DNA from: Deltaproteobacteria bacterium
GTDB taxonomy: Bacteria; Desulfobacterota; Binatia; UBA9968
Assembly: GCA_009692615.1 (NCBI GenBank)
Contig: SHYW01000045.1
Location: 1-37,021 of the forward strand
Direction of reading: 5' to 3'
DNA: 37,021 bases
Shown here: positions 21,145 through 25,872 of the stretch, one piece after another
Layout of the letters: the number at the start of each line of letters is the position of its first letter
Position numbering within the stretch: the stretch's first letter is position 1
Made by a program: the position numbers and the translations under genes
Notes under the pieces: generated by a model
The model's database searches: none
Told to the model about the DNA's origin: nothing
Seen by the model: the letters and a program-made list of their open reading frames with translations, nothing else

Positions 21145-22587
21145 ATGAAGACTCTCATCCAAGGCGGCTGGGTCGTCGGCTTTGACGGCAACCAACATGA
21201 AGTGATCAAGGACGGCGTCGTAGTTTACGACGGCAACCGCGTCGAGTTCGTCGGCAAGGAATATGCGCCGCCGGTGGACAATAAGATCGACGCCAAGGGC
21301 TGTCTGGTGTCGCCGGGTTTTATCGACACGCACTTTCACTCCGGCATCAATGCCAGCGATTACATCCTCAACGATTCCACCAAGACCGATTTCTTCGCGT
21401 CGAATTATCTTGCCCACGGTGGACCGACCCGCGAGGGCGCCCATGCGGCGCATTTGAAAGACGTCGACATCGGCCAGCGCTTCTCGCTGATTCACGTGCT
21501 GAAGAGCGGCGTGACCACGACCTTCGACATCGGCGGCGCCGGCGGCGAACCGGAGCGCTACGTCGATATGATAGATCAGGTCGGCATTCGCTGCGCCGCT
21601 GGACCGAGCTACAAGAACGTTTCGTTCTTCCACGACCGCGAAGGGAGATTGGAATACGACTGGAACGACGAGCGCGGCAGCAAAGGATTAACGAGCGCGG
21701 TCGACTTCGCGAAAAAATTCAACGGCGCGTGCGGCGGGCGTATGAGTGCGCTGCTTTATCCCGGCCACGTTGACTCCTGCACGCCTGCCTTGCTGAAGGA
21801 AACCACCCTGGCGGCGAGGGATGTCGGCGTGCGCGTGCAAATCCACGCGACCATCAATCTGTTCGAATTCCACACCGTAATGCAGCGCGAACGCTGCACG
21901 CCCATTGAGCTGCTCAAAAAAATCGGCTTTCTCAATCCGGAAGTTTCGCTGTCGCACTGCATTTTCGTCAGCGGCCACAGCTGGCTCAGCTATCCCTACG
22001 GCGACGATATAAAAATTATCGCTGACTCCGGCGCGTCGGTCGCTTACAGCCCGCTGAAATATTTAAAGCTCGGCATCCTGATGGAATCCTTCGACCGCTA
22101 TCGCCAAGCCGGCATCAACATGGGCATCGGCACCGACACGTTTCCCAAGGACATTCTCTCCGACATGCGCTATGCCGCCATCGCCTCACGCATCGCCGAC
22201 AAAAGTTTTCTCGCCGGCCATCCGCGCGACGTTTTCAATTCGATCACGCTCGGCGGCGCGAAGATGCTCGGCCGCGACGACTTGGGCAGATTACAAAAAG
22301 GCGCCAAGGCCGACATCACCATTGTCAATCTGCGCGACATCGCCTTCGGCGCTGTGCGAGATCCGATTCGATCCTTAATGGAAACCGCCGTCAGCCGCGA
22401 CGTGCGCACGGTGATCGTCGATGGCGAGACGCTGGTGGACAACGGCAAATATCTGCGCATCAACGAAGAGGAGTTGTTGGAAAAAGTCCAGGCCAAAGGC
22501 GAGCAAGTTTGGGACAGCGTCGCCAAGTGGCACTGGACGGGAAAAGCGATCGACGAAGTCGTGCCGCCGAGTTTTCGGATGAAGTGA
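21145..22587 (+). CDS. Amidohydrolase-superfamily metal-dependent hydrolase
   Basis: This 480-residue protein has the layout of the subgroup that includes AtzA, TrzN and cytosine/MTA deaminases: a small beta domain, a TIM barrel with metal ligands, and a C-terminal return of the beta domain. Ligands are His63 and His65 in FIDTHFHSG, His234 in VQIHATI, His271 in LSHCIFVSGH and Asp331 in GIGTDTFP. The glutamate usually found three residues after the third His (HxxE) is Ile237 here, so the catalytic details may differ. The GAAAGG site precedes the ATG. It follows the orphan binding protein after 236 bases and may act on the same class of compound; the substrate is unknown. Confidence 0.88.
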   Translation: MKTLIQGGWVVGFDGNQHEVIKDGVVVYDGNRVEFVGKEYAPPVDNKIDAKGCLVSPGFIDTHFHSGINASDYILNDSTKTDFFASNYLAHGGPTREGAHAAHLKDVDIGQRFSLIHVLKSGVTTTFDIGGAGGEPERYVDMIDQVGIRCAAGPSYKNVSFFHDREGRLEYDWNDERGSKGLTSAVDFAKKFNGACGGRMSALLYPGHVDSCTPALLKETTLAARDVGVRVQIHATINLFEFHTVMQRERCTPIELLKKIGFLNPEVSLSHCIFVSGHSWLSYPYGDDIKIIADSGASVAYSPLKYLKLGILMESFDRYRQAGINMGIGTDTFPKDILSDMRYAAIASRIADKSFLAGHPRDVFNSITLGGAKMLGRDDLGRLQKGAKADITIVNLRDIAFGAVRDPIRSLMETAVSRDVRTVIVDGETLVDNGKYLRINEEELLEKVQAKGEQVWDSVAKWHWTGKAIDEVVPPSFRMK

Positions 22588-22641
22588 AGGAACCCGACAT
22601 CGAAAGATTACGCTCCATACCCCGCTGCACAAGCACGTACC

Positions 22642-23928
22642 ATGCTTGTTGACCCAAATTGGACATTAAATGCCGAGAACCTTAGTGTCGCTTTGAAAGC
22701 GGCTACTTCTCTGTTCGATCGCCGATGGATTGCTAATCAGAGAGGTAAACGACCAAACTATCACTTAACCCAAGGAGCAGCAGGAGTAGACGCGACTTGG
22801 GGTCAGATTGATGACTTTATAAAACATAGTGCAGCTGGAAAGACAATGCATCCTCTTGCTGAGTCGATTTTTGCGTCCGAATCAGCTTTGGCGGAATTCT
22901 CAAAAACTGGAGTTTGGTTCGAAGATCGTGTTTTCTATCAGGTTATATCTTTAGCGCACGTTGCTTCCTTCAGTTCGCTCATACCAGGTGCAGCGCCTCG
23001 TCTTGCGAAGTTGATTGGAACGGAGTGGAGAAGCGCGCTCTATGAACTCTTAGTTGCCTGTTCGTACCGATCCGAAACGCTCACTGAGTTCATAAAGGAA
23101 ACTAATTCCCCGACACCTGACATACGATTGATGACCAATCCAAACCTCTTCGTCGAGTGTAAAGGTCGACAGAAGTATGAAGAAATAATAGAAGGATTTA
23201 TCCGTACCTGGAGACGTGAGTCATTGGCTCGTATCGACCAAGTTTTAAGAAAATACCACGGGAGCTTTCTCGTCAGAATTACGCTACTTTCACCTCAGGA
23301 CGCCACTGTTTACCAAAAAGAAATTCCTGAAGCAATTTCTACAATGATTGAGAGTGGTTTGAGGGAGCACGACGCCACAAATCGTTACTCTATCGCAATC
23401 GAACCATGGGCGGAACAGATAATTCTATTTCCGCGTCCTGTTACGCATAAAGAAGTTTTCGACTTTTTACCGTTCGATGAGTGGGATGAGTGGCATTACA
23501 TCCTCCCCTACGGTCACTTAAAACCATTGGCTAGCGATACTCGAATGTTCGAAGGAATTAGACAATGGCGTCTCATTTGTGTACGTGCCGATTACTTAAA
23601 GGATAATCGAGTATCGCTCCTAGCCACCCTAAAGGATTTATGTAAACGGCAATTTCGAGAATACCAGCCGGGTATTGTGCATATGGCAACTAACAGCGTT
23701 CAATTCGGTTTGGGGCGTTTCCGCCGGCCGGAAACTATCGTGGAGATTCTGAAATCTGATTTTGAGGTCATGTTCAGAAATTACGACAGAATCTGGAAAA
23801 TTATTATCGATGTTACTTGTGGTAATGAGTGGAAAGGATTTACCGAAGTGCTTCGAGTTCAGGCTACTCGGAAATCAACTGACTCACCAGCTGGTTATGT
23901 AGAGCCCAAACGAATCTTTTTAGTGTAG
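22642..23928 (+). CDS. AT-richer orphan protein with PD-(D/E)XK nuclease signature
   Basis: This 428-residue protein is unlike its neighbours in base composition: its codons favour A and T in a GC-rich window. No named family is recognised. The central region has the order expected for a PD-(D/E)XK nuclease core: Glu135 in SALYELLVAC, then PD at 159-160 (TPDIRLM), and ECK at 172-174 in LFVECKGR, with a hydrophobic strand before it. The helix after ECKGR contains WRRESLARI. The C-terminal 200 residues are unassigned. There is no clear ribosome-binding site at the ATG. Isolated composition suggests recent transfer, and a defence or DNA-processing role is plausible. No methylase or helicase partner is next to it. 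Confidence 0.6.
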   Translation: MLVDPNWTLNAENLSVALKAATSLFDRRWIANQRGKRPNYHLTQGAAGVDATWGQIDDFIKHSAAGKTMHPLAESIFASESALAEFSKTGVWFEDRVFYQVISLAHVASFSSLIPGAAPRLAKLIGTEWRSALYELLVACSYRSETLTEFIKETNSPTPDIRLMTNPNLFVECKGRQKYEEIIEGFIRTWRRESLARIDQVLRKYHGSFLVRITLLSPQDATVYQKEIPEAISTMIESGLREHDATNRYSIAIEPWAEQIILFPRPVTHKEVFDFLPFDEWDEWHYILPYGHLKPLASDTRMFEGIRQWRLICVRADYLKDNRVSLLATLKDLCKRQFREYQPGIVHMATNSVQFGLGRFRRPETIVEILKSDFEVMFRNYDRIWKIIIDVTCGNEWKGFTEVLRVQATRKSTDSPAGYVEPKRIFLV

Positions 23929-23977
23929 ATAACCGAGCCAGCTCCGGTCTCCGTTCGTTATGTTGTCTCGCAATTCG

Positions 23978-25765
23978 CTAAGTCAAGTTTTCGAGTTTTT
24001 TAGTTAATGCACGGATCTCCTCAAACCCTTTCTGCCAAAACTCCGCTTTGTGAATATTGACACCTAATGTTTCGAGCAGGGCGTCGGGTGACGCCGAGCC
24101 GCCGGCTTCGAGCAGCGCGAGATATTTCGGCACGAAGCTTTGGCCTTGATCTTTGTACATGCGATAGAGCGCCAGGACCAAGAGCTGGCCGAAGACGTAG
24201 CTGTAACAGTAAAAACGCGAGTGGATGAAGTGGGGAATGTAGGACCAGCCCCAGCGATAGCCGTCCGGCATGTCGACAGCGTCACCGTAATATTTTCCAT
24301 TCGCCTCGATCCAGAGTTGGCCCACCGCGTCGGGCGTCAGGCGTTTTTCTTTTCTGGCGGCGAAGGCTAGCTCTTCGAAGCGGGTCAGCACGTTTTGGCG
24401 AAACACCGTGGCGAAAATATCTTCGAGCTTGCCGGCGATGAGCGATATCTGCACCTGAGGATCGCTTTGCTGTGAGAGCAGGTGATCGAAGACCAGCATC
24501 TCGGCGAACACCGAGGCGGTTTCGGCGGTGGTGAGCGGCGTGTCGTAGTTGAAATAGTTTTGCTTGCGGCTGAGACAGCCATGCATGCCGTGGCCGAGCT
24601 CGTGGGCGACGGTCATCACATCGCGCAGGTTGTCGTCGTAGTTGCAGAGAATGTACGGATGCAGTTGCGGCGATGGCGAGGCGCAAAAGGCGCCGCCGCG
24701 TTTGCCCTTGCGGATTTCCGCGTCGATCCAATTTTTCGCGAAGAATTCTGACGCCAGTTGGCGAAAGCTCGGATCGAAGGCTTCAAATGCGTCAAGGATC
24801 GTTTGCTTGGCTCGATCGTAGGCGAAGGGTCTGACCTCTTTCCCGACCGGCGCGTATTGGTCGTAGAGCGCGAGCTTTGGCAGTTGCAGCAGCTTTGCTT
24901 TCAACCGGAAATAATCTTGCGCCAAGTCGTAGTTCGCTTCCGATACCGCCATCATGGTCTTCACCGCGGCACCGTCGATCTCGTTGGACAGATGGCGCGG
25001 CGCCATGGGATCGCGATAATCGCGCAAACGGTCAGTGGTCAAATGGTCTTGAATCAGATTGTCGTAGATAAACGTCAGTACTTGCCCGTGCGGCGCCAAT
25101 CCTGAGTAAACCGTCTCCATGGCGCGCTGGCGCAGCGCGCGGTCGGGGTCGTGCAGCAGCGAAAGCATTTGACTGAGGTTCAATTCTTCGCTTGTACCGT
25201 CGCGCTCGAGCTTGAAAGTTAACGACGAAGTGATTTCGGAAAATAGCCGGCCAAAGGCGTTGCGCCCGGTGTTGTCCTTTTCGTTGATGAGCTTTTCTTC
25301 CAATTCCGAGAGCGTGTGCGGACGATAGCGGCGCAGGCTGGTTAGATAGTGTTCGAAGGGTTTGAGCTGCGCTTGGCTCATTAGCTTGTTAGCGATCTCA
25401 TCTTCGACTTTGAGCCAGGCGAGTTCGAAAAACAGCAAGAGATTTCTGATCTCGGTGCTGCGTTGTTCGACCCGCTGCTCCAAGTCTTGATACTCAGGTT
25501 TGGCCGTGTCGGCGGCGTAGAGCAGGCCGGCGTAGCTGCCGACTCGGCCGAGGGCTTCGTAAATTTTTTCCAGACTTTGCAGCGCGCGCAGGAGAGTTTC
25601 GCCGCTCAAACTTTTCGATGCGTTCATTGCCTGGCGAAATTGTTCGGCGAAAGCTTCGGCGTTACTCCGGCACTGGTTGAGCGTGGTCTCGATGCGCGGG
25701 TCGTCATGGGACGCGAACAGGTCGCTTAGGTCCCAGCGGATTCCTTGGGCACTGTGATTTTCCAT
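23978..25765 (-). CDS. pepF: Oligoendopeptidase F (M3 family)
   Basis: This cytoplasmic zinc metallopeptidase of about 595 residues cleaves medium-length peptides. The zinc motif is HELGHGMHG (His388, Glu389, His392), and the third ligand is probably the Glu of TTAETASVFAEM. Family segments include WDLSDLF at the start, GRVGSYAGLLYAADT, RPHTLSELEEKLINEKD and WSYIPHFIHSRFYCYSYVFGQL. The ATG at 25765 puts the conserved WDLSDLF at the normal position; the longer frame to 25852 adds nothing recognisable. The class II aldolase gene is divergent, sharing a short upstream region. Confidence 0.93.
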   Translation of the reverse strand: MENHSAQGIRWDLSDLFASHDDPRIETTLNQCRSNAEAFAEQFRQAMNASKSLSGETLLRALQSLEKIYEALGRVGSYAGLLYAADTAKPEYQDLEQRVEQRSTEIRNLLLFFELAWLKVEDEIANKLMSQAQLKPFEHYLTSLRRYRPHTLSELEEKLINEKDNTGRNAFGRLFSEITSSLTFKLERDGTSEELNLSQMLSLLHDPDRALRQRAMETVYSGLAPHGQVLTFIYDNLIQDHLTTDRLRDYRDPMAPRHLSNEIDGAAVKTMMAVSEANYDLAQDYFRLKAKLLQLPKLALYDQYAPVGKEVRPFAYDRAKQTILDAFEAFDPSFRQLASEFFAKNWIDAEIRKGKRGGAFCASPSPQLHPYILCNYDDNLRDVMTVAHELGHGMHGCLSRKQNYFNYDTPLTTAETASVFAEMLVFDHLLSQQSDPQVQISLIAGKLEDIFATVFRQNVLTRFEELAFAARKEKRLTPDAVGQLWIEANGKYYGDAVDMPDGYRWGWSYIPHFIHSRFYCYSYVFGQLLVLALYRMYKDQGQSFVPKYLALLEAGGSASPDALLETLGVNIHKAEFWQKGFEEIRALTKKLENLT

Positions 25766-25872
25766 GTCTCTTCGTGTAGTTGGTTTTTCGCCGAAAGCCA
25801 AGTTGCGGCAGCGGATGGCAGTGTATATGATGGCGAAAATTTTTCTCAACAAACATGGAGGCGTAGTTTTTT

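Follow-up and report, generated by a model that had tools for sequence, protein, structure and literature searches.

Shedu (SduA) is a stand-alone PD-(D/E)XK defence nuclease, encoded by a single gene with a patchy, mobile distribution, and in these respects it resembles the family described here. PD-(D/E)XK domains are also found in 13 validated systems from the DefensePredictor work on E. coli, many of them reported to be of mixed architecture (PMC13092281); these 13 may include the E. coli representatives of the family described here. A literature search, which covered the main texts of journals open without subscription, returned no report recognisable as this family, six accession numbers included.

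None of the PADLOC models, Shedu included, matched any of 15 family members at E ≤ 1, nor did any match the protein studied here. Pfam, NCBIfam and PADLOC yielded nothing significant for the 15 members, and the only nuclease families with weak Pfam matches were Mrr_cat (PF04471, type IV restriction; best E 0.029) and REase_AHJR-like (PF18743; best E 0.0092), each at best borderline and each in 2 of the 15; our protein matched neither at E ≤ 1. The predicted structure of a family member has its core fold in common with the archaeal Hjc resolvases (1gef, 1ob9, 2wcw) and with the type II enzymes HindIII, BsaWI and BstEII, but the family differs from these in the helical region before the core, at the N-terminus, and in the long C-terminal region.

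The gene lies in the window, a complete contig (C45) of 37,021 nucleotides. On balance, and with moderate confidence, we consider that it encodes a stand-alone, metal-dependent PD-(D/E)XK nuclease that was acquired horizontally as a single gene, and that its family is plasmid and prophage cargo, most likely attacking incoming phage or plasmid DNA. If this is true, the known mobile single-gene nuclease families gain one that was missed by the PADLOC, Pfam and NCBIfam libraries used, although its members occur on plasmids, within P2-like prophages and, by blastn, in 53 of the 5426 complete E. coli genomes; it would also offer a simple case of how a methylase-free nuclease spares its host. The case further illustrates that reading catalytic residues by eye can recover a relation that single-sequence searches miss.

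Results

Composition and surroundings of the gene

The gene is the sole open reading frame (ORF) between a convergent amidohydrolase and PepF pair (Table 1), and it is present in a single copy in the source genome (5,048,122 bases, 186 contigs). The initial annotation had picked out an AT-richer gene standing alone between these two flanks, with E135, P159-D160 and E172-C173-K174 in the order of a PD-(D/E)XK nuclease. The ORF coordinates and residue positions were correct, and Pfam identified both flanks as named. The gene has a GC content of 0.446. Across the contig, 715 overlapping tiles of 1287 bp average 0.562 (sd 0.025), and the 12 of lowest GC all overlap the gene, making it the most AT-rich part of the contig. 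Its GC3 is 0.41, compared with 0.70–0.76 in four neighbouring genes.

Table 1. Coordinates of the gene, its flanks and its conserved residues in the window. Counts are of relatives that keep the residue; several relatives are near-copies.
Feature	Position	Strand	Evidence
Gene for a 428-aa protein, a divergent member of the unnamed PD-(D/E)XK-type family	22642..23928	+	Sequence, profile, BLASTP and hhalign comparisons
Amidohydrolase, left flank	21145..22587	+	Pfam PF01979 (Amidohydro_1), E 2.7e-31
PepF-type peptidase M3 (oligopeptidase F), right flank	23978..25852	−	Pfam PF01432, E 1.1e-49; PF08439, E 1.2e-16
Codon of E135, placed on the first helix of the core by alignment with the modelled relative	23044..23046	+	E in 41/41 relatives; E148 in model helix 142–157
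Codons of P159-D160, predicted metal-site Asp	23116..23121	+	D 41/41, P 33/41
Codons of E172-C173-K174, (D/E)XK motif	23155..23163	+	E and K 41/41, C 40/41
C-terminal region with Q337, H347, R362, E402	23650..23847	+	Q 40/41, H 38/41, R 40/41, E 40/41

When nine proteins around the gene were scanned with PADLOC, eight had no match and the ninth matched through an apparent protease domain; the surroundings are not a defence island. Within the window, the protein encoded at 31608-32741 matches, over residues 98–262, the protease part of the PADLOC RT-Protease_XI, LmuA and HamA1 models (best E 8.5e-19); this looks like a shared protease domain and no defence system.

A remote member of a widespread family

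Single-sequence searches with the window protein found no relative in genome contigs, viral contigs, phages, 145 relatives of the source genome or 395 genomes of its phylum, and library scans, Pfam and PADLOC included, returned nothing at E ≤ 1. These results fit the description of the gene as an orphan, yet the gene belongs to a widespread family. A search of plasmids gave two matches, with E-values of 0.4 and 0.9, both spanning the motif, and these weak matches, P0002 (Kosakonia, 484 aa) and P0003 (Sinorhizobium, 542 aa), formed the bridge to the family. In pairwise BLASTP the window protein matched P0002 at 4e-8 and P0003 at 1e-7, while P0002 and P0003 matched each other at 6e-10.

Relatives of P0002 are present in 66 plasmid records, and further members came from viral contigs, genome contigs, E. 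coli chromosomes and one of 50,697 phage records. A member is also held by another genome of the window's own phylum (G219; alignment profile, E 5.6e-87); in the alignment-profile search of the 395 phylum genomes, three matched, including the window's own, and one of the three matched weakly. The corresponding alignment search of the 145 relatives matched the window genome's own copy alone, and viral scans with alignments A8 and A9 gave no match. In a sequence search of the PDB, the window protein found unrelated weak matches only and the family alignment found none. Family proteins are about 370–540 aa long, and their named hosts are alpha-, beta- and gammaproteobacteria, Bacteroidota and Desulfocapsaceae. 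Many copies on IncA/IncC-type plasmids are shortened (L017:5001-5573 and similar), and the L017 copy adjoins a Tn3-type transposon.

How securely the window protein belongs to this family was judged from profiles. When 35 relatives were made into a profile that excluded the window protein, the protein scored 36.9 bits over residues 71–237, whereas 1000 shuffled copies of it reached at most 3.1 bits. In hhalign, the window protein matched a four-member profile (A4) with probability 80.1 (E 1.4e-5) and A8 with probability 44.5 (E 2.3e-4); the match to the second subfamily (A7) was weak (probability 3.6, E 0.012), and the flanking amidohydrolase, as a control, gave probability 0.1 (E 0.47). By these comparisons, we judge the window protein to be a true but very remote member of the family.

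This remoteness is pronounced. In the tree the window branch is very long, with 6 changes per column and a placement without support. The relatives show 90% conservation or more at 27 positions; the window protein agrees with them at 14 and departs at 13, among the latter the family R beside ECK, Y182 and E186. Since 13 of the 27 well-conserved positions have changed, altered function or decay is possible, and the gene might be a decaying relic whose function has been lost or changed while the family stays active elsewhere. A search of 22400-24100 for a sigma-70-like promoter also found none, as a relic would predict. Nevertheless, we regard decay as improbable, because the reading frame is unbroken across 428 codons and the protein itself retains E135, D160, E172, K174, Q337, H347, R362 and E402.

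Conserved residues and predicted fold

Residue conservation was counted in 41 relatives, which include several near-copies and are thus not 41 independent cases. Three loci were left out because the frame is broken (L016), the copy is the one shortened beside the Tn3-type transposon (L017) or the match is weak and partial (L045), as were the near-duplicate viral loci L020, L023, L025, L026, L029, L030, L033, L076, L077 and L079; a truncated row of 177 aa (L043) was kept. Conservation of D160, E172 and K174 in homologues had been proposed as a test of the nuclease reading, and all three are present in every one of the 41 (Table 1). This invariance, together with the gap between the profile score of the window protein and those of its shuffled copies, argues that the E/D/E/K motif is more than a chance occurrence. 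The roughly 200 residues beyond the motif, initially called unassigned, do lie after the core, but they are a C-terminal region that the family conserves, with near-invariant Q337, H347, R362 and E402.

When the window protein was modelled alone from its single sequence, the pLDDT was 36.3, and this model was left out of the fold searches. As it was too poor to use, the fold of the window protein is taken from homology. The Vibrio plantisponsor member was chosen for AlphaFold2 because the window row was too remote, and it was modelled from an alignment (A13) of 21 sequences comprising the window, viral and genome loci, with pLDDT 87.7 and pTM 0.89. The core of this model consists of a helix (142–157), three strands (161–164, 176–180, 183–191), a second helix (197–219) and a final strand (224–230). 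E148 lies on the first helix, D175 just ahead of the second strand, and E188 and K190 on the third strand. The Vibrio member is thus predicted to have the alpha-beta-beta-beta-alpha-beta PD-(D/E)XK core with its catalytic residues in place. The nuclease fold first suggested for the window protein is supported through its family, by the invariant residues and the modelled core.

Structure searches with the Vibrio model gave modest scores. Of the 335 PDB matches that Foldseek returned at E ≤ 10, not one reached E ≤ 0.001; the match to the Hjc resolvase 1ob9 had a probability of 0.96, with 2.1 Å over 48 columns. In VIA-align, the Z scores were 5.7 for Hjc (93 residues, 3.4 Å), 5.3 for the McrBC assembly, 4.8 for HindIII, 4.7 for I-Ssp6803I, 4.2 for BsaWI and 4.0 for BstEII, most nuclease scores being below 6. 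The fold assignment rests no less on the order of the elements and the placement of the residues than on these scores. The best-scoring VIA-align rows belonged to acetyl-CoA carboxylase, whose central domain reached a Z of 8.6, and to a chain of a CdiA-CT toxin, which aligned over 126 of 132 residues with an rmsd of 3.8 and a Z of 8.2. Kinship with acetyl-CoA carboxylase was not accepted; VIA-align warns that a Z below 8 may reflect a mere common arrangement.

The amidohydrolase-PepF site in related genomes

The site was surveyed in 20 genomes, including the source genome, with a match threshold of E ≤ 1e-80. The amidohydrolase was matched in all 20 and PepF in 9, and the two were adjacent on one contig in four: the window, G003, G004 and G009. 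In the window the ends of the two matches are 1396 bp apart; in G003, where PepF was matched as two pieces, they are 90 bp apart, in G009 74 bp, and in G004 800 bp. In G003 and G009 the site is empty, with no gene between the amidohydrolase and PepF. In G004, which is of the same genus as the window, an HNH-domain ORF of 148 aa (Pfam E 2e-12; PADLOC PtuB models 2.6e-7) occupies the gap (L070:6699-7380), preceded by a small ORF of 83 aa that has no Pfam match. Thus the window gene was gained at, or lost from, this site within the family, and the low GC and this occupancy agree with the earlier suggestion of a foreign single gene at a variable site. In the congener G004, another one-gene nuclease takes the place that the gene has in the window.

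A site that is empty in two relatives and occupied by an HNH ORF in a third could hold a free-standing homing-type or other selfish nuclease gene, present there through promoting its own insertion and playing no part in defence; the structural match to a homing enzyme, I-Ssp6803I, points the same way. We give this alternative a small chance. The relatives of the gene sit in unrelated surroundings, the window protein greatly exceeds the I-Ssp6803I chain of 148 residues in size, and no convincing flanking repeats that would mark a mobile element were found at the window site, only short ones of chance length.

Genomic surroundings of the relatives

Family members are found on plasmids and in P2-like prophages. 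An integrase gene adjoins the family gene in all 12 P2-like viral loci (L019–L030) and also in one E. coli locus (L080), and in phage 899 the family gene lies between tail-fibre assembly and tail-sheath genes. P2-like phages carry antiviral cargo elsewhere, between gpA and gpQ (PMC9122126).

Some relatives adjoin Dnd, Qat, Septu-, AbiJ- or Hachiman-like genes. Judged by product name, a clear defence gene is nearby in 4 of 20 annotated loci, and several others are suggestive; the four carry Qat (L004), an abortive-infection gene with a type I R subunit (L006), Dnd (L009) and a TIR protein (L013). Ten neighbours in eight loci, chosen by hand and so not a random sample, were compared with PADLOC: six proteins in four loci matched at E ≤ 1e-5 (AbiJ, DpdB-like, DndC, LmuA-like, PtuA and PDC-M18A) and four proteins in four loci did not. 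The HamB-like helicase (PADLOC) that adjoins P0003 prompted the idea of a Hachiman link, which was dropped, the helicase being seen beside that one relative only.

Methyltransferase genes are near 3 of the 20 annotated loci (L003, L010, L015). A constant methylase partner was dropped as an explanation on this count, and a restriction-modification pair is unlikely. More generally, no partner gene was shared by the loci seen.

We give little credence to a recombination or repair nuclease of mobile elements, Holliday-junction-resolvase-like and without a defence role: the Hjc resolvases among the structural matches and the adjoining prophage integrases speak for it, but the family is patchy (53/5426 E. 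coli genomes), has no partner gene common to its loci, and may resemble Hjc through the common core alone.

Proposed function

The retained catalytic residues, together with a mobile family of which some members stand beside antiviral genes, suggest that the family is probably a one-gene antiviral defence. For the window gene itself, a role as defence cargo is plausible from the surroundings of its relatives. In our preferred reading, a stand-alone nuclease carried as mobile cargo, the protein would cut DNA in a metal-dependent manner, working alone, and its target would be foreign DNA of phage or plasmid origin. With no consistent methylase beside the gene, host DNA would be spared by recognition of a modification, a DNA structure or an infection signal, which may be read by the N- and C-terminal regions. 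The conserved C-terminal set, Q337, H347, R362 and E402, would be the natural candidate for this recognition step.

A bolder version of the stand-alone nuclease is also conceivable, although we put it forward tentatively and think it doubtful. Here the family would be an undescribed single-protein immune system, in which a nuclease is joined to a sensor or second active site, formed by the C-terminal Q/H/R/E residues, for a phage product or DNA structure, and which would for that reason be methylase-free. The amidohydrolase-PepF gap would then be a miniature hotspot in which one-gene nucleases replace each other within the lineage.

Two observations on individual relatives were made in the course of these comparisons. 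Three rhizobial members (L009:4947-6287, L083:5908-7275 and L084:5935-7281) carry the RefSeq name 'transposase'; this identity was rejected, as the Pfam families listed for the 15 members scanned (E ≤ 1), L009 included, comprise no transposase domain. In Moellerella (L006:4095-4928) and Vibrio (L038:7095-7928), the gene immediately upstream of the family member is AbiJ-like and encodes 277 aa, and its two copies are 97% identical; the AbiJ-like gene and the family gene in these loci are perhaps one mobile cassette.
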